A DNA stretch of 64,000 bases from Turnera subulata (taxonomy: Eukaryota; Streptophyta; Magnoliopsida; Malpighiales; Passifloraceae), in NCBI GenBank assembly GCA_028386065.3, contig JAKUCV010002214.1:40894-104893 (forward strand), given 5' to 3'. Of this stretch, positions 36,492 to 60,437 are shown piece after piece (the stretch's first letter is position 1; each line of letters opens with the position of its first letter). Both the position numbers and the translations under genes were made by a program. The notes beneath the pieces were generated by a model. That model searched no databases, was not told the DNA's origin, and worked only from the letters and a program-made list of their open reading frames with translations.

Positions 36492-36730
36492 TGAAAGACT
36501 TTTAAACACTCACACAGAAATGTGAAAGAATATCCTGTAAGTTTATTGAATAGCCTCAAGCTTTTATAGCCTTATAAGATATGAAATACTAGTAACAACC
36601 CACGTATGTTTCATGGTGTTTGTTACTGACCAATTCAAAACAAATTCAAACAGATTCTAACTACTTGACTGCTAATGACTAGGACTTTATTAGCAGAATA
36701 CATTGTTTGAACTGTGTCAGTTTGGGTTGT
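36492..36730 (-). repeat. Copia 5' LTR (minus orientation), 239 bp, end in complement tract
   Basis: 36492-36701 matches the other LTR directly. 36702-36730 matches 32318-32346 only as a same-direction complement, 29 of 29 bases. Confidence 0.85.
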
Positions 36731-36866
36731 CTACAGCGTAAATAGAAACAAAATACAGTTCTAAGTCGAGCGGTTGGGCATGTTTGGTATACCTCACGAT
36801 GAAAAGAAATTAGGAATTCGTGCTGGCTTCGTCCTACGTACGCTAGTTTATTACGAAGGGATATGT
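36702..36866. other. Non-reversed complement tract 1 (165 bp)
   Basis: Bases 36702-36730 are the complement, same direction, of copia LTR 32318-32346 (29/29). Bases 36731-36866 are the complement of 3725-3860 in the duplicate block, with one mismatch in 136. Direct similarity resumes at 36867 (CAAAGTACCC). The length is conserved. Confidence 0.93.
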
Positions 36867-38206
36867 CAAAGTACCCTATATTTGTTGAAAATATATAATC
36901 AATGGCAGCATAGAAAATGGTACGCCCTGAGGATCGAGCTCTCCTATAACCACACAATTGGAACTAGGACACAAAGACAGTACAGTCTCTGCATCAGCTG
37001 CAAATCTTAGACCACATATTCCAAATAGGTCTGCAATGAAGCAACAGATGATCATGCGTCTCAACTGTCTTTAGAAAAAAAAGAACATAATTAAAGTTTG
37101 TTTGTCTAGTTAAGATCAACTAGCAATTGTTTGAGACTTAGTGTCAAAGCAAAAACAAATATTGTTGGAGACTAGATTTGGGCCATAAGGCATATGTGTT
37201 TGGCTTTATTTTCCACAACCCTACAAATATTTAACTGCTCCATGCTATGTAACGATTCAGCAGATGTCGCCAACCATATGGAATGCTTATTAACTTTAAT
37301 CCTTAAGCATATGACCGAAGCAGAATGCGATCAAATAACGCTTCCCTACACACAACTACCCGATTTTTGTTGAAAATATACAGTCGATGGTAGCATATAT
37401 AGAAAATGGTAAGCCAATGAACTAGGACTCAAAGACAGTCTCTGCATATTCAGCAGGCCTACAATGAAGCAACAGATGAAAACGCGTCCCAACTATCTTT
37501 AGAGCAAAAAGGACATAATTAAGGATTGCTCCACCACCAATATCCTTCTTTCCAAGAGAGGCTTTGCACTTAATTAATTAAGCTTTATAATTCTAGGGTC
37601 CCAGGGTTTATAGGATATAAGAGTTTAGGTTTACGATCTTATTCGTGTTGTTTGTGGGCAAAAATTTGTCAGTGGTAGGTGTCTACTGGCGCATGCCATT
37701 TGTCCAGAAGACTTATTTGTTCAATGGCATGCATTAATTAGCTGGATACCTGTTGTCTAGATCTTCTTGGGTGTTTGAGCAAGTTGAGATGGAGGTTACC
37801 TGAGGTTATAATGTTGAGGTCAATATCCTGGATCGCTTTCCGTTATAACTTCTGGGATGTGCATGTGCTTATTTGTGCAGAAAGTATCAATCCGTCATAA
37901 GACTGCCAAGAAGCAGACAGTATCACTGGGTCTGAAGTGTGAAGGTGTATATGTGCGTTTGATATAGAGAATGAAGGAAAGAGGTAAAGGTAAATGTTAA
38001 CGAGGCAAAATATGGCTGATGATTGGTATGTAGTTCCTAGCTATACTCTTAATCACGATTCTGAATGTTGTTGAGTCGACCAAATAAATATTGTTCCAGT
38101 TTTTTCATTGTTTCTTATATACAAATAAAGAATTTAACGAATAATACCTCTCTGAGTCGCTCTAGGTCTGATTTCAAGGAAGATACTAAGAAACAACATA
38201 TCAGAT
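36867..38206. other. F-box 3' flank and relics, no intact gene
   Basis: 36867-37330 matches 3862-4330. 37330-37500 is a degenerate second copy of that flank. About 37890-37930 (AGTATCAATCCGTCATAAGAC) is a type C scrap. About 37947-38090 has GATATAGAGAATGAAG and a tail ending GAATGTTGTTGAGTCGACC, scraps of a type A gene also seen at 48860, 50190 and 59030. Bases 37500-38430 have no counterpart in copy 1. Confidence 0.6.
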
Positions 38207-38319
38207 CTCTGTGTTTTATGTGTAACGGGAACTGGTCATTCTATTTTGACCGTAACTTTTGTACATAATTTTAGTCATTTTTAATATACATCATCATCGT
38301 TTATATCAAAAAAAAAAAA
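38207..38319 (+). mobile_element. 5'-truncated retroposon, 113 bp, 15-bp TSD
   Basis: Ends CGTTTATATCAAAAAAA, the 3' signature of the local LINEs. The duplication AACAACATATCAGAT lies at 38192-38206 and 38320-38334. The related stretch at 50285-50340 lacks the insertion. Confidence 0.88.
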
Positions 38320-38386
38320 AACAACATATCAGATAATCTTGAATAGGATTATATATCCTGGGCAAATCAGTTGGAAGAGGACAGTA

Positions 38387-38406
38387 ATTTTTTTTTTGAT
38401 ATAAAC
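38387..38406 (-). mobile_element. Minute LINE insertion, 20 bp
   Basis: A T run then GATATAAAC, flanked by GAAGAGGACAGTA (38374-38386) and GAAGAGAACAGTA (38407-38419), a 13-bp duplication with one difference. Confidence 0.7.
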
Positions 38407-38509
38407 GAAGAGAACAGTACTTGAATTTTTACTAGTTTTCGTAGGGCTATTAGTGTGTGCCATACATATGGAGGAGAAAAAGAAAATGACGAAAGTTTGA
38501 AACACTTAA

Positions 38510-38725
38510 AACAAAACAAAAGGAAACAGTGAACCTAACCTATACTTCAGCTTTCCTCCAGTGGTTGGGGTCTCATCCCCATAAATATTAACTAGCTAGA
38601 TTTATATGCAAGAGAAGTAAACTTGCCACCCTGTCCAATACGAATGTAGTAAAAGAATCGAAACTCACAATTCCTATAAAACGTAATCCTCTGACTATGC
38701 AATGAAAAAGACCTAAACAAAGACC
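38510..38725 (-). pseudogene. F-box type C, 3'-end relic (copy 2)
   Basis: Duplicate of 4540-4751, with the same truncation point. Confidence 0.82.
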
Positions 38726-38739
38726 GCATATGTCAAGAA

Positions 38740-40832
38740 ATGCATCATGAGAGTAAAATTGCATACTAGCATCGTCATTTTCGATATCTGAGCTTAGTTT
38801 TATTTACGGATTAAAACGCAAGAAAGTCAAAAAATCCATTCCGACAAAGTTTGAAATTGACCAAAATTGGGACAAGTCCATTGATACCCAGTCACCCAAC
38901 ATCAAGAATATGCATTCACAACAACGTAACAACACTCGAATCACCCGAAATCATTCAAATTCGCCAAGAACCCTAAACCCCCAATTGGTGAAACTCCAAT
39001 CCATGACTTCTTGTGTTTATTCCGTAAATTAGGCATGAAGGAAAGCATTCTAGGCATCTTAGGAGTATTTCTAACAATCAAACACAACATGCACCGCATA
39101 AAATTGAATTCAAGAAGCACATTGGGCATAAATCCGAATTTCAACCAAAACGAAAGTTTGATGAGCTTTGATGAATAAGAATCACTTACTTGGACTTTGT
39201 CGAGTTGGGAGGAGATGTGTCTATCAGCAGACTTCAACAATAGGCTCCGATTTTCCTCCAGATTCGATTTTGGGCGGTAATTCTTCATGGAATCTTATTG
39301 TGATTTAAAGGGTTTGAGAGGTGTGGGAGTTGAAGGGGGGGATGAAGAGAGCTTGAAGAGTGTTCAGAAGTAGGGAGAAGAAGAGGTTGAGAGGTTTTGG
39401 GGTGTTTTGTATGAAATAAGAGAAGAAAGAGGGAAAAGGGGGGTTTAAACCCGCAAGAGTGCGGGCCGTCATGTCGAGAAGACCGCCCAGACTTGGTGGT
39501 CATCCCAACATGACCACCATCAGCTGGCAGGCTTCTTGACATGACCGCCATGCTCCTTCCTTGACTTCTCTCCTATTTTTATGGACCCCGCGTCCCGGAA
39601 TGGCCCTTTTCCCGGGATAGAACCCTGGTATGCGTATTTTTGAATCCCAATAACAAACATGTTTGTTTATTTCACCAAGATTTAAGCGTTCTGTTAATCC
39701 AAGGGTAATGATATGTTACCCTGCGTGGTCGAACGAACTTCTTATAAACCTGGGAAAACTTGCCTTCCACGCTTTGAGATGAGAAAACCGGATGTGAGTG
39801 AGCCTCGTAGAAAATTGAAAACCTGCTTTTGCATTTCTGAGAGAAAACCGAAGGGGAGATGTCCCAAAAGACCAAGGCATATTATCCAAAGACATGTTTG
39901 ATCTAGACCAGCCGAGACCAGGGGCAGATGCCCCTAAGATAGAAGTAGAACTATTTGAGAGTTGCTAGGGGCAGATGCCCCTAGGGTAGAAGTAGAGTCG
40001 ATAAGAGTTGCTAGGGGCAGATGCCCCTAAGGTAGAATTGATGAAGATGTTGAGGGATAGATATCCCATGGATGATGTCCCGACGTAGAGGAGCACCGAG
40101 AAGATGTAGACGAACCACCGGATGATTCCCGTTAGCTCTTGGGACTAGGAAAATCCCAAGACCCCCCGAGATGAGATGAAATCCCCACGGGAGGTAGACA
40201 ATATCCCTACCTAACACAGGTGAGATGATCCTTGTTAGCGACCTGTAGATGAAATCCCCATGGGAGGTAGACAATATCCCTAGTTAACACATGTGAGATG
40301 ATCCTTTGTTAATGACTTTTGGGACCAGGAAAATGCCAAAAGAAACCCCTCAGTAGATGAATTCCCCACGGGAGGTAGACAATATCCCTAGTTAACACAG
40401 GTGAGATGATCCTTTGTTAATGACTTTTGGGACCAGAAAAATCCCAAAAGAAACCCCTCAGTAGATGAATTCCCCACTGGAGGTAGACAATATCCCTAGT
40501 TAACATAGGTGAGATGATCCTTTGTTAATGAATTTTGGGACCAGGAAAATCCCGAAAGAAACCCCTTAGTAGATGAATTCCTCATGGGAGGTAGACAATA
40601 TCCCCAGTTAACATAGGTGAGATGATCCTTTGTTAAAGAATTTTGGGACTAGGAAAATCCCAAGAGATGAGATGAGTCGGTCACAAACCTCGGGATGAGA
40701 TGATTTTCGAGGTTAAGCATGTGATGCTCTAGCCTTTGGTCCACAATACTCACATCCATTATCAAAATTTGGTTGTTCATTCCTTGCGTTGCTTCGTCTT
40801 TAAGTTTTAAAGACTCACCAACGAGGGGCATC
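38740..40832. mobile_element. Gypsy-type remnants, copy 2
   Basis: Duplicate of 4752-6842: the minus-strand LTR-like part with the GGCGGTCAT cluster (39460-39550), the three GGGGCAGATGCCCC hairpins (39921-40030) and the 108-bp minisatellite (40172-40664). Confidence 0.7.
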
Positions 40833-42423
40833 TGTGAACACCCAAATTTGACCCATGAGAATTATATTGAGATTAGACTCCAGACATGTTTGAATCATAA
40901 GATTGATGAGTTAGTCTTGGGTTGAAGCATAGATGGGTTTAATTTTAATAGAATTTATACATTATAGTAATTAAGACTTTTATATGCCTAGGATTAATGA
41001 GACGATTTAATCATAGGACATGTTAAGGACTAAATTGCTAAAATTTATTTTATCTCATTAAATTTGGACTTGTTTCTTTATTAAATCTAATTATATTTAT
41101 TCTTGGGTTGAAGATAAATATAAGGGTCCAATTTAATGAGGTATGGACTTTACTTCAGAGTTGCACAACCCATTAACACCTTGCTTGTAGACTAATTTAG
41201 CTCTGATTTTTGTGGAAAATCATAGTTAAATCATTCCTTAATAGCAAGAATGTTTTTGGTATGGTTTTGGCTTAAAATGAGGAATCAATGTATAATTAGT
41301 CAATTAGGAGATGATTGAGGGGAGTAGTAATCAAGAAAGCAGAGGATTCTGAGCAGTCTAGGTGTTAATTACGCGGTAGGATCAATCAGGGAGGAATTAG
41401 GGGAGAATCGGGACCGAAAAAGGAAAGGACAGGTGAGACGCGTAGGCGCGGGCGGTCATCTTGGGATGACCGCCGGGCCTGGGCAGTCTTCCACCCATGA
41501 CCGCTCGGCCTGGCTGTCATCCATAGGATGACCGCGGTCATGCATACCCAAAAACGCGTTTTCTCCCCGATTTTCACCCGTAATCTGATTCTACTCGGCT
41601 TTGGCCCAGATTTTTGGCCATTACCTTGATCATTAAGTTGGTCGACGCCCCTAGACTACCCAGAACACTATAAATAGGACCCCCCTCTCACATTTCGACA
41701 CACATTCTATCACACAAACACTCTTCAAAAAACTTAGAAGCTTGGAGAAACTTTTTCTCTCCAAGCTTAAGAAATAGTTCCATAGGCAAAACTCTGGTAG
41801 AATTTCGTGGGTAGCATCACCCATTGAAGGCAGCAATAGGGCAAAATCAAGAAGAACTCTAAGATTGAGTTGAGGAGTGGGAGGAAATTGTGTGAGAGGC
41901 ACAACCCAAACCAAGGAGCTAGAGGAGGGCTACAAGATGTAATCCTAATCCCTTTTTGTCTGACCAATTGTTGTTGAGATGTTGATCTTGATGATGATGT
42001 GATTGTTGTGATGCCATGTCAAGAACTACGTGGGCTTTGAACCCGGTCGCCGGGGTACGTAGGTGGCTTCTAGTGGTGGAAACTCAAGCCAATCTTCTTC
42101 TTCTCCCCTTTCTTTTTAATATTCAGTTATTATGTGTTTTGGTGCACACACTTGCACAAGGCATACAAAGTCCTCTAATTGCACAAAGTTTCACCCCAAC
42201 ATGGAAGGGTGCCTAACACCTTCCCATCCATGACGAATCCCCGGGTCCAGCTTCCTTTGTTCTCTAATCAGTTGCTTAAATGGAGTCACATGAAGGGGTT
42301 TTCCCAAGTTTTTGTCCCTTAATAAAATTTGGGTGGCGATTCCAAAGATGTTAGATGACGGTTATGTAGAAGGTGTAAAGGAAAGGTGAATAGGCCCAAG
42401 TGATTTTGGGTCGGGTATTCACA
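40833..42423 (+). repeat. Gypsy-type LTR (copy 2), 1,591 bp
   Basis: Duplicate of 6843-8450 with small indels; TATA box at 41669-41676. Confidence 0.75.
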
Positions 42424-43193
42424 GTCTGCTTACTCGATAAATCTTTCGGCAGTATTAGTATTTATATATATATAAAAATGATAAAAGTAGTAATAAGAAG
42501 AGTTTAGAAATAAGTCCCTTAATAGGGTAAAGACTCGTACTGATAACGTGCTATAAAATAGAGGATTATTCTTGGTTAAATCCAAACAAGAGTGATTGGC
42601 CCCAAATCTTATCTTTCTTTTTATGTTATCAAGCTTGAGATTTATATGATTACACATACCTAAACCTGCTTTTAATCATACTTGCCATCATCCCAAGCTT
42701 GACCACTAGTTGCAAGTAATTGGCTGATGAAGGTATGTGTGAACAAGTGATTGACCAATAATTTAATGCTGGAAGAAAGGGAGGAGGGCTCATTATAATC
42801 ATAGGGGTTGGTTGGTGTACTAGTCAATCCATCACATTCGTGTTCAAAAAAAAATCCATGACATTCACATTTTTATAACATTTGTTACAAAATAAGTTGT
42901 CATGTTTAAAACTTTTTTTCGTCACGAATTGAAGTAAAGGCAGTCGGTGTTTTCTGTGGCTGCAGTGGTTATTCTTTCTGCTTCATCTTTATGATCAAGG
43001 GTGTTGATACGTGGGCCCTACGTAATTTGGATCAAAATTTTTTTATAATATATGGAGTCCACGTGAGTGCTTAATGTCACATTAGCACAATAGCTAGTTA
43101 TAGATTAAATAAAGGATTATTCTTATTATTTTAATATAATAGGGGGACTAAATATATATTTAATCTATTTTTTTAATATTAATTATAACCTTG
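42424..43193. other. Intergenic; uninterrupted LARD target region
   Basis: Matches 8451-8616 joined to 14467-15080. The join at about 42589 is where copy 1 has the LARD. No gene. Confidence 0.75.
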
Positions 43194-43205
43194 CTATATA
43201 TATAG
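43194..43205 (+). promoter_or_regulatory. Candidate TATA box of type A F-box gene, copy 2
   Basis: CTATATATATAG, same position relative to the ATG as in copy 1. Confidence 0.35.
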
Positions 43206-43450
43206 GATTCCGCACTCTTTATTATATATTATTGTTTCCAACTAGGTTTGGGTTTGCTACATTCTTATGGTTTTCATATGTAATACGTACACACCGTGCG
43301 TGAGTCGGTTGGGTCGGTTGGTTAGTTCATCAACATATATATATGCATACAAACATATATTGCTTTTACATCGTAAATTCATTGTTTGTTACGTTGTTGT
43401 GTTAATTTTGAAGTAGTAGTAAGAAGATATACAGAAGCACGCAAATCATC

Positions 43451-44737
43451 ATGGCGCCACTCGAAATTATAGCCAACATACTTAGCAGGCTTCCCTTCAA
43501 GAACATTGTTCGGTGCAAGATGGTATGCAAATCATGGCTCCACTTGATCACCAGTGATCCTTATTTCGCTAAGCTGCACCGGACGCAACAACAACAACGA
43601 CAACAGTCTCTCCTTTTTTACCCCGATCCAGGGCGGCTGACGAGGGACAGCCCTAAACCTCGACGAGCTCGACTATATGTCAAGAACATGATAGACCTTA
43701 GTACTACTACTAGCCCAAGCCCTAGCCCTAGCCCTGCTTCTTTCGCCGTCATGACCTTAGAAGTAGGGCCCAAGTTGGAGATCGGAGAGGGAGAGGCAGT
43801 CAAAGGGGTAATGGTTGTTGGTTCTTGTAATGGCTTGATTTGTTCAGCACATGATGATTGTGAAAAACAAATTGGTCCTTATATATGGGTGCGGCGACTG
43901 TGGTTTCGTGTGAGCAACCCCATTACTGGAGAATACTTTGCGATTGAAAGCACAATGAGACGAGAAATGTATACTTTTCCCCGTATGGAGTTTTGTTATT
44001 GCCCGTCCAGTGATCAGTACAAGATTATGGTATGGACGGAATCTCTAATGATTCACACTCTTGGGAGTAACTTGTGGAGAAGCCTTGATGTTAAACATAT
44101 CCCGTACCCAATCTCAGCAGCTTCTAAGGCGGCTTCTCTCAATGGTGCTCTTCATTGGGTTTGCAATGTTCGAGCTGGTACACATGTGTGCGCCTTCGAT
44201 ATAGAGAATGAAGCAGTCCGGTTTGTTATCCCTGCACCTCCAATCAATAAAGGTGTTTGTTATGTGTTTGGAACTGAGCTCAGTGTATCGGTGTGCCGTG
44301 GTTGGCTTAGTCTATTCCTGGTACGGAAGAGGAACACATGGGATGAAGGTAATGGCCTTGACATATGGGTGATGAAGGAGTATGGAGAGGCAAGCTCTTG
44401 GACAAGGCAACATGTTGTTCTATCACCATCCCTGGTGGAAAGATCACCAAAACTTTATAGACTCATACCAATTCATATTAACACTACTACTACTAGAGAA
44501 GAAGGAGGAGATGGCAAGATTCTTCTGGTGAGTCAAAGAAGAGAAGGCAAGAGAGGACGCAAAAGTGGAGGCCCAAGCATTCTGTTATCCTATGATCTCG
44601 AGACCAAGAACACCAAAGAGGTAGAGGTAGATATTAGCTCTATTTCGCTTGTAATTCCCTATACTCCTAGTCTTCTCTCGCTTGGGGATGTGTTTGCCGG
44701 AAAAGGCTTCACCATCCTGAAATTTGAGTCCAAATAG
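43451..44737 (+). CDS. F-box protein type A with FBA-like domain (copy 2)
   Basis: 428 aa, single exon, apparently intact. Identical to the 15338 product except for one extra Glu in TREEGGDG (a 3-bp GAA insertion). I noticed only one other CDS difference, a silent C/T at 44350. F-box at residues 1-42 (SKP1 contact), FBA-like region from about 110 to the end (substrate contact). The AATAAA signal is at 44789-44794. Intact frame and extreme similarity to its twin suggest recent duplication plus sequence homogenisation, or selection. Either copy could be the expressed one. Confidence 0.9.
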   Translation: MAPLEIIANILSRLPFKNIVRCKMVCKSWLHLITSDPYFAKLHRTQQQQRQQSLLFYPDPGRLTRDSPKPRRARLYVKNMIDLSTTTSPSPSPSPASFAVMTLEVGPKLEIGEGEAVKGVMVVGSCNGLICSAHDDCEKQIGPYIWVRRLWFRVSNPITGEYFAIESTMRREMYTFPRMEFCYCPSSDQYKIMVWTESLMIHTLGSNLWRSLDVKHIPYPISAASKAASLNGALHWVCNVRAGTHVCAFDIENEAVRFVIPAPPINKGVCYVFGTELSVSVCRGWLSLFLVRKRNTWDEGNGLDIWVMKEYGEASSWTRQHVVLSPSLVERSPKLYRLIPIHINTTTTREEGGDGKILLVSQRREGKRGRKSGGPSILLSYDLETKNTKEVEVDISSISLVIPYTPSLLSLGDVFAGKGFTILKFESK

Positions 44738-45093
44738 AATTGCATGCAGATGTCTTAATATATTTCCAATCCCATTTTTCCAATTTTCAATAAATTCACG
44801 TGTATGTATGTGTGGATATTGTGGTGATGGGTTCATGCAACAAATAGCAAAACCTCTTATCACCACAAAATTATGACCTTAATTAATGCTGCAGATATTC
44901 CCTCAAATTTGCTGCAACAAAAAGAAAAGAATTAATTTGTTCAAGAATTTGGATCAAATTAAAAAGGATTGATTTTTCAAGCCCAATCAAACTTTTCCTC
45001 CCCCATGATCGGAAGTAGAGTGTCATCTATATAATTCAGATTGCATGAGTGGCTAGGCCACTATTTTTCATTATCTATTGTTGAATTCAAACA

Positions 45094-45459
45094 ATGGAGG
45101 AGCCAGGAAGGCTACAAAACCCATCCACCCATATGGTTTTGAAAGTTGTAAGAATATGTTATTGCCAAGCCAAAATTACTTATGGCGGTTTAATGCAGCC
45201 GGCGGGGGACGAGCCTAGACCTCGACTACTATATAAAGAAAACATGATAGACCTTAGTACTACTAGTGCTTCTTCTTCTTCTGTGGTCATGACCTTAGAA
45301 GTAGGGCCTAAGTTGGACATGGAAAAACGTTCAAAGGGGATTTTGTTGGTTCTTGTAATGTTTCTTTTGCAAACATTTTTGTTATCCAATGCATGCTTGA
45401 ACAGTTCCTCCATATATATCTCTCCACCCAACAAACATGGTGCTCTAGTGGTAGAATAG
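45094..45459 (+). pseudogene. F-box type A broken copy, F-box deleted (copy 2)
   Basis: Counterpart of the 17739 pseudogene. A 941-bp deletion relative to copy 1 (17079-18019) joins at the 3-bp shared AAT near 45194, removing the start and the whole F-box. By chance the fusion leaves a 121-codon frame that starts in former intergenic DNA (MEEPGRLQNP) and enters the old reading frame at MQPAGDEPRPR. It is an accidental chimeric ORF with no recognised domain. Confidence 0.85.
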
Positions 45460-45504
45460 TACCCTGCCACGGTACAGACCCGGGTTTGCTTCCCGCCTGG
45501 TGCA
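45431..45504 (+). pseudogene. tRNA-Gly(GCC)-like sequence (copy 2)
   Basis: As at 18256, but the anticodon arm here is perfect (GTACC-CTGCCAC-GGTAC). The acceptor stem is still unpaired (ACAAACA against CTGGTGC), so a working tRNA is unlikely. Confidence 0.7.
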
Positions 45505-45599
45505 TAGGTGCCATGATATGATACTTGTGCTCCCGTGCTCCTTGTGATTCAATTCAAGGGTTATGTATATGTGCTTGAATCTTTTATAGAATTGCGTTT

Positions 45600-47074
45600 T
45601 CTTTTTTTGATACTAAACGATGATGATGGTATTATTAAAAAATCAAAAACAGTAGGATACAGCAAGTCATGCGTGAACTGACCGCCATGACCCAACGGTT
45701 ACACCGCGATACAAATAAAGATTACAACTGAACGAAATGATCGACCTCAGTTAGCATTCAGGGAATTAAAGTTCCTCTTTGGACATCTCCAAAATTTTAA
45801 TGTATCAGCCTTGGATAGAACCATTGAAGTGCTAAAGGGGAAGTCAGGCTGCAATGACCTGATCCAAAAAGAGGCGTGCACCAGAGCCAGTTCAGCAATC
45901 CTGCACGCATCTGCAGATAGGTTGTGAAAGATCCTTCGGTTTCGCTCAAGCCAAATCGGTCTCAGTACTGCAACGCCAATGAGAAACCAACTAGTGCGGT
46001 TGCGGTAGTTCGGTGATAAGAAAGTCCACTGAAGAATGAAATCCTCAAGCGTGGCAGGACTGCACCATAAAACCCCCCACCATTTGCAGACTTTGGACCA
46101 GACCAACAAGGAGACTGGGCAGGAAAGCAACAAATGGTCTCTAGTTTTGATTGAGGAGTTACACATAACACATACCGAATCACTCAAACCAATGATGCCC
46201 CTCTGGCGGAGGTTTTCCTTGGACGGTATACCATTATACAAAGCCAACCAAAGCCAACATTCTACCTTAAAGGGAGGTAGAGAATACCATATGAATGATT
46301 TGTCTCTTCTGAGACCGAGCTGAGAGTAGATGAAATCTCTACCCCTCTTAACAGTGTATGACCCATCCATGGCATGCCTCCAGATTCTTTGATCTTGCTG
46401 AGTCGGGTGGCCTGGAATGTTGCAAATCATTTCCATGAGTGCATTTTTTCTCTCAACCTCCCACTCCCAAAGGGGGCGCCTCCAAGCGGAAGCCCAAAAA
46501 GGCTGTTGATTAATCATCTTAATGGCTTCACTGACTGAGCAGTCCTTACACGTAGAAAATGAAAAAAATCTTGGAAAGAGCTCTTTGAAGGAACCACGAC
46601 CAGTCCAGTCATTCCCCCAGAAGTTAATTTCGGCACCAGATCCAAGTTTAATGGTAGACCCAGCCAATAGAGAGACCCCAGTTTGGCTGATGAGAACCTG
46701 ACTGCACTATATCAATCCAAGGTGCAGAACATTTTCGTCTGGAGAAGGTTGGGAATAAGTCTGAATTATTTTCACCACATTTGTTTTTTAACAAAGGACA
46801 GCTTCTCTGTTGGGCTAGAATAGCACCATAACCATTTGAATAGGAGAGATTGGTTCATGGTGCACAAATCAATAATTCCCGTGCCGCCAAGCTCTTGAGG
46901 AATTGTTATTTTCTTCCATGCAACAAAACAGGTCTTCTTAGAATTCTCAATGCCACTCCAGAAAAAATTCCTCAGTATAGATGCCAATTTTTTTCGAACA
47001 CCCGCAGGCATCTTGAAGAGAGACATGTAGTATACAGGTAATCCACTCAACACCGATTTGATGAGGGTGACTCT
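45600..47074 (-). mobile_element. LINE 3' fragment, duplicate of 18425-19901
   Basis: Carries the RT thumb and zf-RVT C-terminus (CVMCNSSIKTRDHLLLSCP), ending at a T run from about 45600. The sequence matches copy 1 up to GGGTGACTCT at 47074, then switches abruptly to the upstream block of a type B F-box gene, which is the right breakpoint of the duplication. It has its own lesions (small deletions near 46690 and 46797). Confidence 0.9.
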
Positions 47075-47422
47075 AATTTATCATTATTATATAAGACTTT
47101 AATTTGGTGCATATATACACAAAATTTCCGCATTCAATTCCCGTGTGGGACCTGAATCATCACAAAATAAGACTTTAATACATTATTTTTCGGGATTCAA
47201 ATATAGAATAACCACAAAACATAAAAAAATAAAGACATCGAGGAAGTTGGTGCGTTGAATCCAAAACGAAACGGAAAAAGAATTATATATATATATATAA
47301 TCAATCTCGCCTCGCACCAAAAGTCACCCATATATACAAACACACAAATCAAGATCTCTCCTTGCAAAAAAAAAAAAAAAGAAAGAAAACCATCAGTCTC
47401 GTCATCGGAAAAACAAGAAAAT

Positions 47423-50215: not shown

Positions 50216-50507
50216 AATATTGTTCCAGTTTTCATCGTTTCTTACAAATAAAGAATTTAAACAATAACCCCTCTTTGAGTCGCTCTAGGTCGGATTTCAA
50301 GGAAGATACTAAGCACCAGGAAATAAGATAGTCTTGAACAGGATTACATATCCTTGGTGAATCAGCTGGAAGAGATAGAACAGTTGGTGATAAAAGAAAG
50401 TAACTAAATTTTTACTAGTTCTCGAGGGGCTATTACTGTGTGCAACACATTTGAAGAAAAGAATGTAGCTAAATTTAATGTAACATTCAGAAATCTTCTT
50501 AGTTGAC

Positions 50508-51666
50508 TCATGTCAATAGTCTCCAATTTGTCCAGCAAACAAAGATTGAAACACTGAAAGCCAAAACAAAACAGTGAACGCAACCTAGCCTATACTTCAG
50601 CTTTCCTCCACTGGTTAGGAGTCTCATTCCTTTGAATGTTACCAAGCTAGATTTATAAGATAGACAAGCAGATGTCTCTGGGCCCTTAATTTCTTCACGA
50701 ATGTCGGAGATGAATCTAAACAATGACTCACGAATCCTGGAAAACGCAATCCTTTGACTATGCAATGAAATACGCGCAACATAAATTTCTCTTCTCATTT
50801 CTGGATTTTCTTTCAGGAATGGCAATGGAATTATTGTCTTCATACCTTGCAACGCCTTATCGTCCTGACAATCTTGCAGCCTCAATATATGCAGCTCATC
50901 ATTTGCTAGAGCGACGAAATTATGGCCATTCATCACCCTCAACAAGGGAAACATAGGAGCCATCTGGGAACACAGACCTCGGCACGAGTTTATGACCTTG
51001 AAAACTCTCGGTATCCAGATCAAATGACATTACCTCGTGATCCCGTGATTGAATCAAGCTTATTTTTGCAATATGAACGACTCCTTCTACAAGACATGCC
51101 CGGAGACGATCGTTTTTGTCCAAGCTTTGAAGATGGATAGAATCAACATGTTTCCACGAAGGTTTGTCCTCAGTACCTAAAAGAAGAATTTCAACACCTC
51201 CATAACCATTTCCAGTAACATCAGAGTCGTATATAGAGGCCAACTTGTAAAATCCTGATGTTGGAGCAAAACCAAACCGCAATTCTCGAATCCTTTTATG
51301 TGGCTTAGGTACGTAGAATACTTGCCCCATTGCTGGGTTTCTGATGCGAAACTCCTTGGAAACATTGTGCTTCTCTAGTATGATCAATCCATTATAAGAC
51401 TGCAAAGAAGTAAAAGGAGGTTGCTCCACCACCGGGAATGTACCACATGGACTGTGGTAGAGATGCTTTTCAACAAAATAGCGATCCTCAGTTAAGAGCT
51501 TCCATTCCTTGGATACACACTTGAATCTCAACAAATCCTTCACTGCCACACGGCTTAATATCTCAATGATGAGTTCCATTGGGAGAATAATTGGCCGTAG
51601 ATTGCCAGGGGAGTATTTCTCTCCTTTGCTTTCAATTTTTCTACGATTAGACATATATTGACCCAT
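50508..51666 (-). pseudogene. F-box type C gene with a single frameshift
   Basis: Reads right to left from MGQYMSNRRKIESKGEK at 51666. F-box at residues about 28-68 (LPMELIIEILSRVAVKD, RFKCVSKEWKLL), then a substrate domain with RIRNPAMGQVFYVPKP, FGFAPTSGFYKLASIYD, VEILLLGTEDKPSWK and MSFDLDTESFQGHK. After GDEWP (near 50926) an extra nucleotide ends the frame with TAA; FVALANDELHIL continues one frame over to KLKYRLG. Paralogs at 53.6 k and 59.7 k are open here. One base separates this from a full gene of about 385 aa, so a sequencing error must be excluded. Confidence 0.85.
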
Positions 51667-51921
51667 ACTTCAGCGCACTTTGCTCCTGGCTATGTTATTT
51701 AAAGTTTGTTAAAAATATGACAAGACAAAGAAAAAAATGATAGTGTGTCCAAAAATTGAAATACAGGCAGTTTTAAAACAATCTTAATTAATGAATGAGG
51801 ATTTGTATATATTGAAGATACGTATATCTAAACTATCTTCATATCAAAATAAACAAATTGTATACATTCCCTCTCTTTTCCCCCAATTAATCATCATTAG
51901 CAAAAAAAAATCGACATACTA

Positions 51922-52120
51922 CGAAGTTAAACCTTTTTCTAATTTGGTTCATGGTACCTTAAAGATGCGGTGAAAGAGAAAAGGGACGATATATATATCT
52001 ATATGTTGAAAATAAATATCACTACCGACTTACGATGATTTGTTTTCATTGTTGTATTCTTCATCTATATATTCCAAACATTCTTGATCTTAAATACTAT
52101 AGTTTATTATTATGAAAACT
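51922..52120. other. Non-reversed complement tract 2 (199 bp)
   Basis: Lies in the upstream flank of the type C gene. Its same-direction complement aligns with 55027-55236 (for example CCAAGTACCATGGAATTTC and ACAACATAAGAAGTAGATA). Direct homology holds up to 51921 and from 52121 (AATAGATTCATAATACGTG). Confidence 0.9.
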
Positions 52121-52350
52121 AATAGATTCATAATACGTGTAAGCTTAAAAAGTGATAGGTGTTCAACGCATACCTTTTGATGTAGGATTGTTAGAGTAGA
52201 TGTGTTGCAACTTCCGCATTAGCTTTGGTGGATCTATGAGAATCAACGTAAGCAGTGAGTGGTTATTAAACAAATACAAAATCTAGGGTTCGAGGTGGGC
52301 TTATAATCACTCTTCCAAAATTAAATTCATAACAATTAAGCCTAAAAGTT

Positions 52351-52364
52351 TTTTTTTGATGCTC
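52351..52364 (-). mobile_element. Minute LINE insertion, 14 bp
   Basis: TTTTTTTGATGCTC between two copies of ATTAAGCCTAAAAGTT (52335-52350 and 52365-52380). The T run plus GAT is the LINE 3' end; the related stretch at 29780 has no insertion. Confidence 0.75.
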
Positions 52365-52380
52365 ATTAAGCCTAAAAGTT

Positions 52381-53280
52381 ACAGGCGTGGATCACATATA
52401 TACCTTGTGATGTAGTGTAGGTACGACTTGTCATCTAATTTAGATTACGAAAACGACTATTGTATCTGTTATTATGAGAAAAAATTATATATACATATAT
52501 TATGTTTGTTGTAATAAATATTTTATCGCAACAAAAATAAAACGCTCTACAACTCATCCACATTTTACTTAAAAGAAACCCTAATAATTTTGGACTGGCC
52601 CAGAATAACCCTATTGTTGGATGGAAACCATATGGGCCCAAAATTTAGGTTTGAGTTTATTTGGTAACCAATCACTTAATCGTGTATATATATTATTAGA
52701 ACTGGGGAAAAAGAAAACATAGTCAACCTAAACTACAACGGCATGGCAAAACAGGAACCTATAATTTGCAATATTATTTGTTTGTTTATGCGAGTTTTAT
52801 GTTTTATTTTCTTATGTTGCTTTATTTATTTAATTTTGGAGTAAATTAAGTGAGCAAATACGTATATTGGCTCAACGTAGCTTGTATGCTACCTCCTATT
52901 ACAGGTCAGGCCATTTTACATCAAAGTCTGCCTATGCCTTATTGTCCAGCGTTGGTATATATTTTGTACATGCCTTATGGAGACTTGAATGGCAATAGCC
53001 TGGTCCGCAGCGTGTTCATTTGGCTCATTGCTAATAGAAATTGCTCGCTTATAACATGAGATGTAGCGAAAACTTGCTTTGTCCGGCTTGCACAGTCATG
53101 GTAGAGAAGTTACTTAATATTTTTCCAGGATTATTGGCGCGCTAGGAGAGTGTAGCGGAAACTTGTGCCTCTGTGCTAGTGGGGCTCTTTTTCCTCATTG
53201 CCTGCAGAATGCTTGGATTTTTAACAGAAATAGTATTGGTTTTTGTTCAGAATATTTTTAGGACGGCGGAATCCCCTCAG
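52381..53280. other. Type C flank, then unassigned DNA
   Basis: 52381-52690 matches 29790-30080. 52690-53280 has no counterpart in the window. The longest plus frame, 52850-53059 (69 codons), shows nothing recognisable. Confidence 0.5.
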
Positions 53281-53550
53281 TTCTTGTAAGGGCAACCCCT
53301 TAGTTGGAAGAGAACATTCAGAAATCTCCTCAGTTGGCTATTAGCAAGAGCAACGAATTTTACTAGTTTTCGTTGGGCTGTTAATGTGTGGCACACATCT
53401 GAGGAAAAGAAAGTAACTAAATTTAATATAACATTCAGAAATATTCTTAGTTGGCTCATATCAATAGTCTCCAATTTGTCCACCAAGCAATGATTGAAAC
53501 ATTGAAAACAAAACAAAACAGTGCACAAAACCTATACTTCAGCTTTCCCT

Positions 53551-54625
53551 CTACTGGTTGGGGCCGAGTCTCATTCCTTTGAATGTCACCAAGCTAGATT
53601 TATATGCAAGACAAGTAAACTTGCCGTCCTTTTCAACACATGTCTCTGGGCCCTTCCTTTCTTCACGAATGTAGTAAACGTATTGAAACTCGCAATTCCT
53701 ATGGAACGTAATCCTTTGACTATGCAATGAAATGTGCCCAACAGAAATTTTTCTCCGTATTTCAGGATTTTCTTTCAGGAATGACAATGGAATTATTGTC
53801 TTCTTACCCTCCAACTTACCTTCCTCCAGAGAATCTTGCAACCACAATGTATGCAACTCATCATTTGCTAAAGCGACGAGGAATAGCAATCCATCACCAT
53901 AAGCAAGGGAAACATGAACATCAGAGCCATCTGGGAACACAGACCTCGGCACGAGTTTATGACCTCGAAAATTTTCGGAATCTAGATCAAATGACATTAC
54001 CTCATATTCTCGTGATTGAATCGTGCTCGTTTTGGAAATGTGAAAGACTCCTTCTGCAACACATACCTTGAGAAAATTTTTTCTATCATAGCTATGAAGA
54101 TGAGTAGAATGAACTTGTTTCCACGAGGATTTGTCCTCAATACCCAATACAAGAATTTCAACTCCTCCATAACCATTTCCAGCAGTGGAGTCATATATAG
54201 AGACCAACTTGTAAAATCCTGAAGTGGTAGCGAAACCAAACCGCACCATTCGACTCTTTTTTTGTGGATTGGGTATACTGAAATACTTGCTCCACTGACG
54301 GATTCCTGATGCGAAGCTCCCTGGAATGCTCGTGTATCTCTAGTATCAATCCCTGGTAAGACTGCAAAAAAGTAAAAGATTGCTTCACCATTGGAAATCT
54401 ACCAGATGAGCTGTGGTCGAGATGCTTCAGAACAAAACAGCGATCCTCAATTAAGAGCTCCCATTCCTTGGACACACACTTGAATCTCAACAAAACCTTT
54501 ACTGTCGTACTGGTTAATATCTCAATGATGAGTTCCACTGGGAGAATTGCCTGTAGATTGCTGCCAGGGGAGTATTTCTCTCCTTTACTTTCAATTTTTC
54601 TTCGTTTAGATATTTTTTGACCCAT
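53551..54625 (-). pseudogene. F-box type C gene with a single frameshift
   Basis: Reads from MGQKISKRRKIESKGEK at 54625. The F-box (LPVELIIEILTSTTVKVLLRFKC is seen as LPVELIIEIL and RFKCVSKEWELL) and RIRNPSVEQVF follow. One extra base near 54280 shifts the frame after VEQVF; it then continues as FGFATTSGFYKLVSIYD, GGVEILVLGIEDKSSWK, MSFDLDSENFRGHK, VALANDELHTLWLQD and ends at RLGPNQ (53551). The rest of the domain is open. As with the 51.6 k gene, one base decides between gene and pseudogene. Confidence 0.85.
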
Positions 54626-54797
54626 AGTTCACACCACTTTGCTCCTGGCTATGTTATAAAGTTTGTTAAAAATATGACAAGACTAAAAAAAATGATAGAG
54701 CTATTGAGGATTTAAATTATTCAAATTGATATGCAGTTCTTTTTTGTCCAAAAATTGAAATGGATGCAGTTTTAAAACAATCTTAATCAACGAATGA

Positions 54798-54799
<2 letters not shown>

Positions 54800-54873
<74 letters not shown>
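54800..54873. repeat. (TA)n microsatellite, about 36 units
   Basis: Uninterrupted TA run in the 5' flank of the type C gene, in a spot where relatives have only ATGAGGATTTGTATAT. Confidence 0.97.
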
Positions 54874-54876
<3 letters not shown>

Positions 54877-55274
54877 CTATCTTCATATCAAAATCAACAA
54901 ATTGTTCTCTGTAATATTCAAGATATGAATATCCTAATCAATAAATAGAAAGAAATTAATGATGGTCATTCCCTTTCTTTCTCCCAATAAATTATCATTA
55001 GCAAAAAATAAAATCGACAAACTAGCTTCAATTTGGAAAAAAGATCAAACCAAGTACCATGGAATTTCTACGCCTCTTTATCTTTTCCCCACTGTATATA
55101 GATATACTACTTTTCTTTATAGTGAAGGCTTAAGGCTATTAAACAAAGTAACAACATAAGAAGTAGATATATAAGGTTTGTAAGAACTAGAACTAGAATT
55201 TATGATTTCAAATAATTATACTTTTGAAATAGTTTCATAATACGTGTAAGCTTAAAAAGTGATAGGTGTTCATC
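54874..55274. other. Type C upstream flank
   Basis: AT-rich and homologous to 28860-29600 outside the LINE fragment; no gene. Confidence 0.7.
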
Positions 55275-55473
55275 TGCATGGAAAACTACATCCAAACAAT
55301 CTCGTCTACACAACGTTGAAGGAGAAGTCGAAACCACCTAGACACTCTTAGTTTCATTCTTCACTCACCGATAATTTGTTTATCTTTTAACAATACCAAC
55401 TTAGTTGACATTGTCTCTTTTAGTTTCCTTTTCGTTCTTTTCTTTCTTTTCTTACTTATTTGTCTATCTAAGG
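55275..55473. other. Non-reversed complement tract 3 (199 bp)
   Basis: 55275-55389 is the same-direction complement of the type C upstream flank (compare 52165-52279 and 29612-29726). 55390-55473 is the complement of the first 84 bases of the right LTR (58362-58445) with a few mismatches. Direct sequence resumes at CAGAATTTTCG (55474). Confidence 0.92.
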
Positions 55474-56185
55474 CAGAATTTTCGTTAACTGTACAATCTG
55501 ACCCTCAACCTATTTATACTAACACTGTTGAACCAACGACAACTAACTGAACCGGATGACCATTAGTTCACTAACGCCTACACAACCATGCACGAAGATA
55601 CGGATATGACACAACAGCAGAACGGTGTCGTATCAATACTCCAGTCTTGAAAAATGAAACCAGCATCCTGACATCAGAAAGAATTAACAGAGGCGTAATA
55701 TGCTATACAAAAAGCTATGACCAAAATTATCAACCACCAGTAGTTGAATGACAAAAAAACATCACCAACAACTCAAGGAATCAATCTATGATTACATCAG
55801 ACCTCTCAACCCAACAAACATCTGCACCGCAAATACTCAGGGGATCCACCCATGATGCAGACATTACCAGCGATCATCCAAGACACAGACATCACAACCG
55901 CAATCTGCTCAAAAACACAGCAGCCACCCATCCTCCTGGATCAAAGATATAATGCTGCAACTCTCCCTGCATTACTTGTTGCAAGATAGAAAGACTGAAA
56001 GCTGAGCCAAGCTTGCTGGATCTTGAAGAAATTACTCATGCCCTTGCTGCAAACAGGAAAGAATTCCAACGCTGGAACCATTTCATTGCATCCTGCAGCC
56101 TTTGAGCTTCTGCTGCCTTCATTTTATACCTCGTTAAGCCCGCACCATCAATATCAAGAATCAGACAGCCATTGCAAATGCGGAC

Positions 56186-57046
56186 TCACGTTGCAATTGG
56201 AGTGATTTTCCCCTGACTACGTTGTAGATCTACAAACCTTACCAGTGATGTCAAACCCACATACTTCACCAGAACTAGAATGCTTTGCTTCATTAATAAT
56301 CCTCCAGGGTCAAAGAATGTAAAACCAGTCATTTTTCCATCTCTATCTATGACAACTTGCACAAAGACTTTCATATACTTCTGAATGTCAGCTTGAGTCA
56401 TCTTTGGCCATGGAGACTGAGGCTGACCAGAAGTTGCACTCCCAAGTTGGCGTTGCAAAGAGTTCAGGCTACCATACTTAAATGCAGCAACGCGATTGAG
56501 ATCATACTCACTACTCTGCTGCAACGAAGAAGAAGATACGTTGCATGCCTCGACTTTGCCACTTCGACTGCAAATATCTTTTCCTAGTTGAACATCCCAA
56601 GAGCAAGCGCCAGTAATTTGTTTGGTCTCAAAGTCACAAACAGATTTGTTTGGTCTCAAAGTCACAAACAGAGACATCTCTACTTTCTTCGGAAACCCAG
56701 GACAACTCAGAATATGAAGGAAAGCATCAGTACCAAGAATATTACTCGAAGCTTTTGCATCAGCAGAGGCAGAAATCAAAGTTTGTTTACTGTCAGCATG
56801 TTGAGAAGGAACATGTTCATCATGGTTCCAGTCCTGGCCAGACACTACAGATTCATCAGCTAAAGCATCACCCTCAGCGGTCACTTCTTCTTCCCTCTCA
56901 ACATCAAAAATGTTCCCTTCATCTACCTTATCCTCCTCAATGATAGCCTCATCACCAAAGACATACCCCTTTGCTTGCACTCCTCCTCCATCATCATCAA
57001 CCCGATTTGCTACTCCCATTCTCCATTTTTTCCTAACTTTCTTCAA
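56186..57046 (-). CDS. Unrecognised ORF inside LTR element (286 codons)
   Basis: Starts Lys-rich (MKKVRKKWRMGVANR), then an acidic stretch (IIEEDKVDEGNIFDVE), a Ser/Gln-rich middle (SSSSLQQSSEYD), and a C-terminal part with FVQVVIDRDGKMTGFTFFDPGG. No retroviral motif and no family I recognise. Its first codons overlap the end of the upstream ORF by 4 bp in another frame, so the two may be one gene with a frameshift or an unspliced intron. It is probably captured host sequence. Confidence 0.45.
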   Translation of the reverse strand: MKKVRKKWRMGVANRVDDDGGGVQAKGYVFGDEAIIEEDKVDEGNIFDVEREEEVTAEGDALADESVVSGQDWNHDEHVPSQHADSKQTLISASADAKASSNILGTDAFLHILSCPGFPKKVEMSLFVTLRPNKSVCDFETKQITGACSWDVQLGKDICSRSGKVEACNVSSSSLQQSSEYDLNRVAAFKYGSLNSLQRQLGSATSGQPQSPWPKMTQADIQKYMKVFVQVVIDRDGKMTGFTFFDPGGLLMKQSILVLVKYVGLTSLVRFVDLQRSQGKITPIAT

Positions 57047-57591
57047 AATATCAACCTCTTCTTCTTTTGCGTTGCCTTCAATTGAAATGCATGAAGCACA
57101 AACTTCCTAGGTCTACTCCTTCCCAAATTCATTCCTTCCAAAGGATCATCACAAACTTCTATCTCTGTAACCTCTCTCTGCCATTTTTCAAACTCATCCT
57201 CATCATCGTTAGGAGCAATTCTTAATGATCTGAGGTGCTTCTTCTTCCTTGTCTTGCTCGCTTCCCGTTGCCTCTTTGGAACTAAAAACACTCCCTTTTG
57301 CTTCCATTTCTTGACTGATCGACCAACTACATCATATTCATCATCATCACCATATTCTAGAAGCATATCAAATGGCTCATGTACAAACTCCTCCTCCTCT
57401 TCTTCATCGTCAAACTCCCCATCATCATCATCGACCTCTTCCTCATCCTCGACTTCATCGTCCTCATCATCATCATCGTCATTCGCCAAGCCAGTCTCCA
57501 TCGATGTCGAGCGAGAGTACAAGGCTTTGGCCCTGACGTTAGCGTGCACCATCGGTGGTAAAGCCACTGGTATCAAGTCAGGCGGCAACAA
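57043..57591 (-). CDS. Unrecognised acidic ORF inside LTR element (182 codons)
   Basis: After MVHANVRAKALYSRS comes an Asp/Glu run (DDDDDEDDEVEDEEEVDDDD) over about 45 residues, then EPFDMLLEYGDDDEYDVVGRS, basic KKWKQKGVFLVPKRQR, and KTRKKKHLRSLRI. The alternating acidic and basic blocks recall nuclear or organellar chromatin-associated proteins, but I cannot place it. The GAT/GAC/GAA trinucleotide bias could also make a spurious ORF. In tandem with the next ORF (4-bp overlap). Confidence 0.45.
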   Translation of the reverse strand: MLPPDLIPVALPPMVHANVRAKALYSRSTSMETGLANDDDDDEDDEVEDEEEVDDDDGEFDDEEEEEEFVHEPFDMLLEYGDDDEYDVVGRSVKKWKQKGVFLVPKRQREASKTRKKKHLRSLRIAPNDDEDEFEKWQREVTEIEVCDDPLEGMNLGRSRPRKFVLHAFQLKATQKKKRLIF

Positions 57592-58361
57592 ACCAGGTAA
57601 GGTGATTGAGGCATTTTGTCGAGCAGTTGGTGAAGGAGATGAGGAACTTTAAATTGATGGAGGAAAAACGGTTGATGACGCCATAGGTGTTGATTCAACC
57701 ATCAGGGAAGGAACCCTAGCTAGTGAAGGCGGCATTCCTATCACTGAAAATTGACCGGAGTGCAACGGAAGAGAATCAGACGGCGGCACAAGAGGTGGCG
57801 AGAATGACTGATAGTGCCCACCCAGAACAAAACCCCCAATACTTCCAAAAGAATGAACTGATGAAATTGGGGCACCGGAAACCCTAACCTGTGATCAAGG
57901 TGGAATTCCCGGGGCCAGAAACGAATCTGGTATCGTCGAAGAAGAATCGCACCAAGAAGGTTGAACCGGAGGCGTCAAAGACGACCACATCGCCCCTCAG
58001 GACTCGTACCGCTACTGCATCATCGTCAGAGAAGAAGAAATCCATTGCTGCTCCACCCCCCACGGTGAGGAGTGGAAAGGCACATGCGTGAGCTGCGTCA
58101 CCATCACCGGTGAATGAGTAGCTTCCTCCGCGAGCCGCCAGACATCGGGTGAAGGCGGAATAGGAGGCGTAGGATAGGGACCAAACCACTGGCGATGTGG
58201 AGTCTGGTACTGCTGTTCCACCCCCCACGGCGAGGAGTGGCCTGCCTCGGTCTGGAACGGTGACACCATCACCGGTGACGACCACCAGTGATGGCTGTAC
58301 TGTTGCTCCATTGCAAATAGAAACCGCCAAGAACAGCGTGATTCGTAACAGACGGCGCCAA
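57592..58361 (-). other. Interior of LTR element, 5' part
   Basis: Contains a duplicated segment: 58045-58075 (TGCTCCACCCCCCACGGTGAGG with one change) recurs at 58210-58240, giving SSPWGVEQQ twice in the frame 58398-58012. That frame overlaps the LTR and is not a convincing protein. Confidence 0.5.
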
Positions 58362-58607
58362 TTGTTACGGTTAAATCAACTGTAACAGAGAAAATCAAAG
58401 GAAAAGCAAGAAAAGAAAGAAAAGAATGAACAAATAGATAGATTCCCAGAATTTTTGTTAACTGTACAATCTGACCCTCAGCCTATTTGTACTAACACTG
58501 TTGAATCAACGACAACTAACTGAACCGAATGACCAGTAGTTCACTAACGCCTACACAACCCTGCACGAAGATACGGATACGACACAACAGCAGAACGGTG
58601 TCGTACA

Positions 58608-58800
58608 AAATTCTAGGGTTCGTGGTGCATATATACACATAACAAAGTTCACTTCCCTAGTGGGACCTGAATAATCACAAAATAAGACTTTAATTTATTA
58701 TTTTTCAGGAAAATAAAGAGATTGAGGAAGTCGGTGCGTTGAATCCAAACCGAAACGGAAAATGAATTATATATACAAATCTCGCGTCACACCAAAAGAG
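58608..58800. other. Type B upstream block without its gene
   Basis: GTTCGTGGTGCATATATACAC and GTCGGTGCGTTGAATCC match 30070-30260 and 47095-47270, but no type B coding sequence follows. Confidence 0.75.
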
Positions 58801-59060
58801 CATTATGGAGGAGGTTCAAGCATCCTGTTATCCTATATGATCTAATCAGGACAAAGAAGACCAATTTAGAGGTAAAAGTTAAAAAAATATATGGTTTTTT
58901 ATGCTAAAATAATTTTTTATATATAACATGCTAAAATAAAAATATGGCTTATTTTTTGTAGTTTGATAGCTATACTCCTAGTCTTCTCTCCCTTGGGGGT
59001 ATGGCTTTGCTGGAAAATGCTTCATCAGGACTGAATGTTGTTGAGTCGACCAAATCATAA
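58801..59060 (+). pseudogene. F-box type A, 3'-end relic
   Basis: GGAGGTTCAAGCATCCTGTT and CTATACTCCTAGTCTTCTC align to the type A 3' end, like 49980-50200. Frames are destroyed. Confidence 0.8.
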
Positions 59061-59379
59061 ATATCGTTCCAGTTTTCATCGTTTCTTACAAATAACCCCT
59101 CTTTGAGTCGCTCTAGGTCTGATTTCAAGGAAGAAACAAAGCAGCAGGAAATAAGATAATCTTGAACAGGATTACATATCCTTGGCGAATCAGTTGGAAG
59201 AGACAAAACAGTTTGGTGATAAAAGAAAGTAACTAAATTTAATGTAACATTCAGAAACGTCCTTCTAAGTTGACACATATCAATAGTCTCCAATTTTTCC
59301 AGCAAACAAAGAATGAAACACTAAAACCAAAACACAAAACAGTGAACACAACCTAACCTATACATACTTCAGCTTTCCT

Positions 59380-60437
59380 CCACTACTTGGGGTCTCATTC
59401 CTTTGAATGTTACCAAGCTAGATTTATATGCAAGAGAACCCTGTCCAACACATTTCTCCGGGCCCTTCCTTTTTTCACCAATGTAGTAAATGAATCGAAA
59501 CTTTGACTCAAGATTCCTAAAAACGTAATCCTTTGCCTATGCAATGAAATACGCCCAACATAAATTTCTCATCTCATTTCAGGATTTTCTTTCAGGAATG
59601 GCAACAATCTTGCAGCCACAATATATGCAACTCATCAATTACTAGAGCCACGAGGAATGGCCATTCATAAACACAAACAAGGGAAACATTGGAGCCATTC
59701 GGGAACACAGACCTCGGCACCACGAGCTTATGACCTCGAAAACTCTCGGTATCCAGATCGAATGACACTACCTCGTGATCTCGTGATCGAATCAAGCTTA
59801 TTTTCGCAATGTGAACGACTCCTTCTACAGGACATGCCCCGAGAAGATCGTTTTTGGCCAAGCTTTGAAGATGAGTAGAATCAACACGTTTCCACGAAGT
59901 AAACAGGAGTCATGGATTATCATCTTAAAGTTGTGGAGGTAATGGCAAAGGTCGTTGTAATGTCAGTATATCTGTCTAGTTGAACATTTTGGGACTCTAC
60001 CCCCGTTTTGGTATGGCGTTATGAGCTAAGGAAAATACACCTAATCCATACATCTTATGAACGGGGTAACGACCCAAGGAATACGCTTTGAGGAACCTTA
60101 CATTGTGCTTCTCTAGTATCAATCCGTCAGAAGATTGCAAAGCAGCAAAAGGAGGTTGCTCCGCCACTGGAAATGTACCACTTGGGCTGTGGTCGAGATG
60201 CTTTCGAACAAAATAGTGATCCCCAATTAAGTGATTCAATTCCTTGGATACACACTTGAAACCAAACAAATCCTTTACTGCCACACGGATTAATATCTCA
60301 ACGATGAGTTCCATCGGGAGAAAGATTGGTTGTAGATTGCTGGCAGGGTAGTATGTCTCTCTTTTGCTTTTAATATTGCTTCGAGTAGATACATGATGAC
60401 TTTTAATCTTCCTTGGAGTAGATACACAGTGACCCAT
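59380..60437 (-). pseudogene. F-box type C gene, partly unreadable because of complement tract 4
   Basis: Starts at 60437 with MGHCVSTPRKIKSHHVSTRSNIKSKRE, an N-terminus lengthened by a duplicated KSHHVSTRSNIKS-like segment. The F-box is LPMELIVEILIRVAVKD with FKCVSKELNHLI. After LEKHN the read becomes meaningless across 60099-59900 because that stretch is a non-reversed complement of the expected sequence. Recognisable coding returns at 59861 (VEGVVHIAKISLIRSRDHEV, EWPFLVALVIDELHIL). A deletion of about 47 bp near 59603 still breaks the 3' end, so it remains a pseudogene even apart from the tract. Confidence 0.85.
59900..60099. other. Non-reversed complement tract 4 (200 bp)
   Basis: Same-direction complement of the coding stretch seen directly at 51142-51361 in the type C paralog (for example AAACAGGAGTCATGGATT, GTTGTGGAGGTA and GAACGGGGTAACGACCC against their complements). 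Direct homology resumes at ACATTGTGCTTCTC (60100). Confidence 0.92.

Follow-up and report, generated by a model that had tools for sequence, protein, structure and literature searches.

Same-direction complement tracts in a Turnera subulata contig and their probable origin in genome assembly

The locus and its complement tracts

The window, by which we mean the whole stretch of 64,000 nucleotides analysed from Turnera subulata contig JAKUCV010002214.1, carries a copia element, with RVT_2, rve and gag_pre-integrs as pol domains between its two LTR copies, and an F-box gene. Its letters are all printed as capitals. Five tracts within it are in-place complements of what is found in homologous DNA (Table 1). 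The original prediction had described four of them as same-direction complements of paralogs, which seed diagonals and column-by-column views alike bear out. All four are present, but T5 had been overlooked, and the last tract, placed at 59900-60099 with a length of 200 bp, keeps its right border at 60099 but starts one base later and so measures 199 bp.

Table 1. Complement tracts and reference LTR copy in the window; no strand is assigned to any of these features
Feature	Position	Length (bp)	Description
T1	36702-36866	165	In-place complement
T2	51922-52120	199	In-place complement
T3	55275-55473	199	In-place complement
T4	59901-60099	199	In-place complement, within F-box gene
T5	34047-34181	135	In-place complement, within copia pol frame
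Copia LTR copy	32101-32346		Reference for what T1 crosses; partner LTR at 36486-36730

T1 overruns the end of the LTR copy at 36486-36730, taking in its last 24-29 bp together with adjoining DNA (5 bases are ambiguous with the flank), and thus follows no biological unit. All four stops of the minus-strand frame 0 (34600->33001) of the copia element fall inside T5; the counterpart of this tract on contig C3687 has frame 0 without stops across the tract, its sole frame-0 stop lying outside at offset 69. T4 brings four stops into the F-box frame, and the same frame is open there in contig C3258.

Comparison of the window with itself by plain-complement 14-mer seeds, with low complexity filtered out, gave diagonals of up to 141 nt on T1-T4, against up to 17 nt in the plain-reverse control (best 40 of each). 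In the base-level view identity flips between direct and complement at a single base at 36701/36702, 36866/36867, 51921/51922, 52120/52121, 55274/55275, 55473/55474 and 60099/60100, in agreement with the earlier claim that direct homology returns at the very next base. The left border of T1 was read against the other LTR copy and the right against 3860/3861, and the left border of T4, 59901, comes from the exact plain-reverse match of 59901-60099 to C3258. When examined for a biological inversion, the columns match as the same-direction complement of the homolog and not as its reverse complement. A relaxed scan of ~273 kb of sequence returned 20 rows, all in T1, T3, T4 or T5 or their partners; its flank rule did not recover T2, which shows a limit to its sensitivity. 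Control letter swaps in the same scan (A-G/C-T and A-C/G-T) returned 0 rows each. A stricter version of the scan picked up T3 and T4 only.

For each of the five tracts a Markov score is in favour of reading the letters complemented. Among random 199-bp windows (n=2000), 9-12 % fall below zero in this score and 0-8 %, depending on the tract, score as low as a tract, T2 being the weakest. Chance or low complexity as the cause is ruled out by the seed diagonals against their control, the Markov score and the letter-swap controls; self-complement matches of an (AT)n run within 54800-54873 and self-reverse matches of a low-complexity stretch in contig C1685 were disregarded. The complement tracts are therefore confirmed as an observation in the printed sequence. 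A homolog was present in the fetched sequence for 53,770 of the 64,000 window bases, and further tracts could hide in the remaining 16 %.

Normal-form copies and the 199-base length

The same assembly holds the tract DNA in normal form on other contigs. T1 is the plain reverse of C3687:68813-68977 (165/165), and T2, T3 and T4 are the plain reverses of C3258:5475-5673, C3258:3171-3369 and C3258:2319-2517, respectively (199/199 in each case). T5 matches C3687:71498-71632 as plain complement with 2 mismatches, and both of its flanks show direct identity. The description of the tracts as "complemented but not reversed" does not carry over to the other strand, on which they read as reversed without complementing, as when a whole scaffold is flipped with part of its letters left uncomplemented.

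Between the surroundings of T4 (59730-60464) and C3258, the only mismatches outside the tract are the adjoining bases 59900 and 60100. Flanking base 51921 of T2 is likewise unlike C3258, on which a lone N adjoins the copy at 5474, as at a scaffold join. A graph vertex at which two paths intersect would be expected to give such differing flanking bases, seen here to either side of T4 and, for T2, on the only side open to comparison. The right flanking base of T3 also differs from C3258; its left flank is identical over 60/60 bases, and over 433 bp at 99.8 %, which counts against a simple two-in, two-out vertex.

A sixth tract lies outside the window on contig C1238. As set down in a prediction recorded beforehand, the complement of C1685:1-199 sits at C1238:11454-11652 (199/199). 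Bases 201-500 of C1685 equal C1238 directly at 100 %, and its bases 1-350 match other copies directly, indicating that the text of C1238 is faulty and not that of C1685. The complement probe of the C1685 start also met T3, at 88 % over 105 bases.

The C1238 tract thus shares with T2, T3 and T4, and not with T1 or T5, a length of exactly 199 bp. Between contigs C2003 and C3258 every plain-reverse match that reaches 60 bp is exactly 199 bp long (3/3), a length shown by none of the 21 exact proper-strand matches that reach 100 bp. Exactly 199 bp are also shared by three of seven contig ends, namely the starts of C2003, C3687 and, as complement, C1685. C2003:1-199 equals contigs C2079 and C145 at 100 %, the match going no further than base 199 when 500 bases are queried, and five further contigs match this start at 98-100 % over 1-194 to 1-200; since base 199 is also a repeat end here, the informative point is solely how far it lies from the start of the contig. 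C3687:1-199 recurs exactly, and no longer, elsewhere within C3687. In the whole genome the end of C2003 matches C6352 over 281 bp at a rounded 100 %, with no cut at 199 bases, and in the fetched sequence the end of C3687 adjoins a 168-bp match; among the fetched sequence no matches were found at either of the two C3258 ends.

Proposed origin in scaffolding

If DISCOVAR de novo works on a graph with K=200, in which adjacent contigs overlap by 199 bases, the tract length of 199 is K-1 of this graph. SSPACE merges overlapping contigs and, through its -n option, writes the overlap in lower case. Against this background the tracts are very probably overlaps of merged contigs that a later scaffold flip reversed without complementing, and hence an assembly artefact. 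Neighbouring DISCOVAR contigs would overlap by K-1 = 199, and the scaffolder (SSPACE) would merge them and leave the overlap in lower case. A later level, either a second mate-pair library or a second round, would then flip this merged product with a reverse-complement routine that leaves all but capital letters untranslated. The lower-case overlap would thereby be reversed with its letters uncomplemented, a step that we infer. On a flipped scaffold such a reversed-only overlap would appear as an in-place complement on the finished strand. T1 and T5 may represent merges of contig ends with an overlap shorter than K-1.

The 199-bp lengths, the contig starts sharing 199 bp and the C1238 tract that is the complement of a contig end all argue for merge overlaps as the cause, as do the breaking by T4 and T5 of frames open in the other contig and the crossing of an LTR end by T1. 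Against it stand the lengths of T1 and T5, which are not 199, and the C2003 end with no 199-base cut. A slip in which a minus-strand piece is complemented without being reversed was rejected, as by logic it leaves a plain reverse in the plus strand.

The tracts resemble the k-1 overlaps of de Bruijn graphs in the number 199, found in T2, T3, T4, the C1238 tract and the starts of C2003, C3687 and C1685; such overlaps are normally kept correct, unlike the tracts, which are complemented in place and in two cases shorter. In likeness to the lower-case merge overlaps of SSPACE they would mark gapless joins, a comparison to which the lone N beside the C3258 copy of T2 also belongs. They are set apart by reversal without complementing, of which phrase searches, whose results concern other subjects as judged by title and opening of the abstract, and listings judged by title brought up no earlier printed account. 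Inversion errors of assemblies likewise involve wrong strand handling but give the reverse complement, whereas the tracts keep the base order and swap letters only.

The Turnera subulata genome was produced from DISCOVAR de novo contigs by SSPACE mate-pair scaffolding, GapCloser and an additional scaffolding round (PMC9862265, section 4.1), with the program of the last round unnamed (PMC9862265). The use of GapCloser between rounds may have turned the letters into capitals; the flip would then have to fall inside one multi-library SSPACE run. The value of DISCOVAR's K is not stated in the available portions of PMC5411782, PMC4779211, PMC9215042 and PMC7216774, the last of which, in the portion available, has w2rap, a fork of DISCOVAR, run with k = 180, 200, 224 and 240; PMC5604175, examined for the combination of DISCOVAR with SSPACE, was of no help.

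The earlier suspicion of a software or editing fault is supported in a form involving contig ends, to which the 199-bp lengths and the C1238 tract conform, and loses support for the 199-bp tracts in the form of gap fills. Another software step, be it the filling of gaps by GapCloser or a post-processing script, in which pieces were reversed with their letters uncomplemented, is an unlikely source: GapCloser was indeed used between scaffolding rounds (PMC9862265) and the lengths of T1 and T5 are predicted by no graph constant, but nothing would make gap fills measure exactly 199 bp, the length of three of the five window tracts and of the C1238 tract, or coincide with a contig end in the way that the C1238 tract does. 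The fixed length and contig-end match rule out gap filling as the main cause of the 199-bp tracts. That the feature was planted, the window having been changed after the assembly was made, is highly improbable; the searched whole-genome copy may share its source file with the window, but the same defect on C1238 fits the contig-end structure of the assembly. A biological event, in which parallel-strand copying, for which we know of no mechanism, puts a same-direction complement into the chromosome, would account for just such a pattern printed five times with sharp borders, but can practically be dismissed given normal forms on other contigs (for three tracts without a mismatch in 199 bases), a length equal to an assembler constant, one tract equal to a contig end, a tract crossing an LTR end, and broken frames that are open in the other contig.

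Consequences and frequency

As flipped merge overlaps the tracts would have no biological meaning and be a matter of data quality: letters likely absent from any organism stand in the genome with no gap mark and break the frames of the F-box gene (T4) and of copia pol (T5). A normal homology search misses them, since the query is compared as it stands and as its reverse complement, and not as its plain complement; an unreversed-complement search combined with a check for 199-base lengths would seek such tracts in similarly made assemblies. Whether multi-round scaffolding of DISCOVAR-type contigs silently inserts overlap complements with a 199-base signature, as a systematic error to be expected in many public drafts and with genes broken at two-haplotype joins, is in our estimate evenly balanced.

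In the whole genome a complement probe from the F-box exon (507 bp) matched T4 alone and one from the copia pol region (1105 bp) gave no match, results that bound the frequency poorly since very common words were skipped and there was no positive control. A protein search with the frame entering T4 did not find the swapped codons of this tract in public annotation; it returned three proteins at 49-61 % query cover, including one from a different gene of the window.

Extent of the complemented tracts

The four tracts that the original prediction described as complemented without reversal (T1 to T4) are real: in each, direct identity gives way to same-direction complement identity and then resumes, every switch falling at a single base. 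The list was incomplete, however, as there is a fifth tract (T5), and the start of the fourth is corrected in the table below. Plain-complement diagonals (letters swapped, order kept) reached 141 nt, against a maximum of 17 for the plain-reverse control (order flipped, letters kept) inside the window, among the best 40 of each. A relaxed scan, whose flank rule misses T2, returned 20 rows, every one of them in T1, T3, T4 or T5 or in a partner of these; the same scan with either of two control letter swaps gave none. All five tracts had Markov scores below zero, compared with 9-12 % of 2000 randomly chosen windows. An F-box exon and a copia region were each used as a complement probe, without a positive control, and revealed no further tracts; others may be hidden in the 16 % of the window that has no homolog. 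A phrase search of open-licence papers found no published report of such tracts.

The window contains F-box genes together with LINE-type and copia elements. Large direct duplications are also present (4599-8473 and 38577-42446; 14803-18742 and 42916-45921; 94-99 % identity in the 300-base samples compared), both duplicated blocks carrying a tandem repeat with 108-bp spacing (6148-6771 and 40137-40760). The contig listed for two window-encoded proteins is 107,542 bp long; the window itself spans bases 40894-104893 of contig C2003, which has 104,893 bp as searched. The assembly searched comprises 518.7 Mb in 7125 contigs, versus the 7877 scaffolds counted in a passage of PMC9862265.

Normal copies on other contigs

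The DNA of the tracts is present in normal form on C3258 or C3687, two contigs of the same assembly oriented opposite to C2003, with matching pieces of 94.7-100 % identity (cut-off 94 %). Plain reversal of the opposite strand's text is equivalent to complementation in place.

Complemented tracts in the window and their matches on other contigs
Tract	Window position	Relation	Match	Context
T1		plain reverse of C3687 segment	165/165	
T2		plain reverse of C3258 segment	199/199	
T3		plain reverse of C3258 segment	199/199	
T4	59901-60099	plain reverse of C3258 segment	199/199	
T5	34047-34181	match to C3687	135 bases, 2 mismatches	inside copia pol frame

Paralogs (T1 to T4) and reading frames (T4 and T5) place the fault in the window copies. 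All four frame-0 stops in the stretch of T5, and four of the five frame stops in that of T4, lie inside the tract, versus none inside the tract on the other contig. T1 crosses a copia LTR end into flanking DNA, so its limits match no genetic element. Immediately to its right (window 36877/36878), a 24-bp unit is present in one more tandem copy on C3687.

The length of 199 bases and contig ends

Comparing C2003 with C3258 in plain reverse gives three matches of 60 bp or more, each exactly 199 long. None of the 21 exact matches on the proper strand that span 100 bp or more has this length. In an assembly graph with word size K, neighbouring contigs have K-1 bases in common. At the start of C2003, bases 1-199 match contigs C2079 and C145 at 100 %, the match to a 500-base query stopping at base 199. 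Five more contigs match this start at 98-100 % up to base 194-200, and base 199 is therefore also a repeat end, exactly 199 bases before which C2003 begins. In C3687, the opening 199 bases have an exact second copy at C3687:5947-6145, which extends no further. No such sharing was found at the end of C2003 or, within the fetched sequence, at the end of C3687 and both ends of C3258.

Direct matching of contig C1685 to C1238 begins only at C1685 base 201. As predicted before the search, C1238:11454-11652 is the complement of C1685:1-199 (199/199, 100 %). C1685:1-199 matches several other copies directly, indicating that the C1238 text is faulty; the same fault is thus present on another contig, in a sixth tract that equals a contig end. 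On this evidence, the pattern is real in the file and is an assembly artefact, as the original prediction favoured, rather than a biological event.

Assembly pipeline and proposed cause

DISCOVAR de novo uses a graph size of K=200, and SSPACE merges contigs with overlapping ends, giving the overlap in lower case. The assembly was produced with DISCOVAR de novo, followed by SSPACE scaffolding with two mate-pair libraries, GapCloser and a further round of scaffolding (PMC9862265, section 4.1); a passage of PMC7216774 reports w2rap, a DISCOVAR fork, used with k = 180 to 240. We infer a code step in which a merged scaffold would later be flipped by a routine translating A, C, G and T but not a, c, g and t. 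Such a flip would reverse all letters and complement capitals only, leaving the overlap with its place, length and order and each base replaced by its complement, which would match the pattern seen. The left flank of T3, identical in C2003 and C3258, fits this explanation poorly. The 165- and 135-base tracts are consistent with merges of ends overlapping by fewer than 199 bases. On C3258, the normal copy of T2 is immediately adjoined by a lone N at position 5474, which fits a scaffold join at which apparently no overlap was found.
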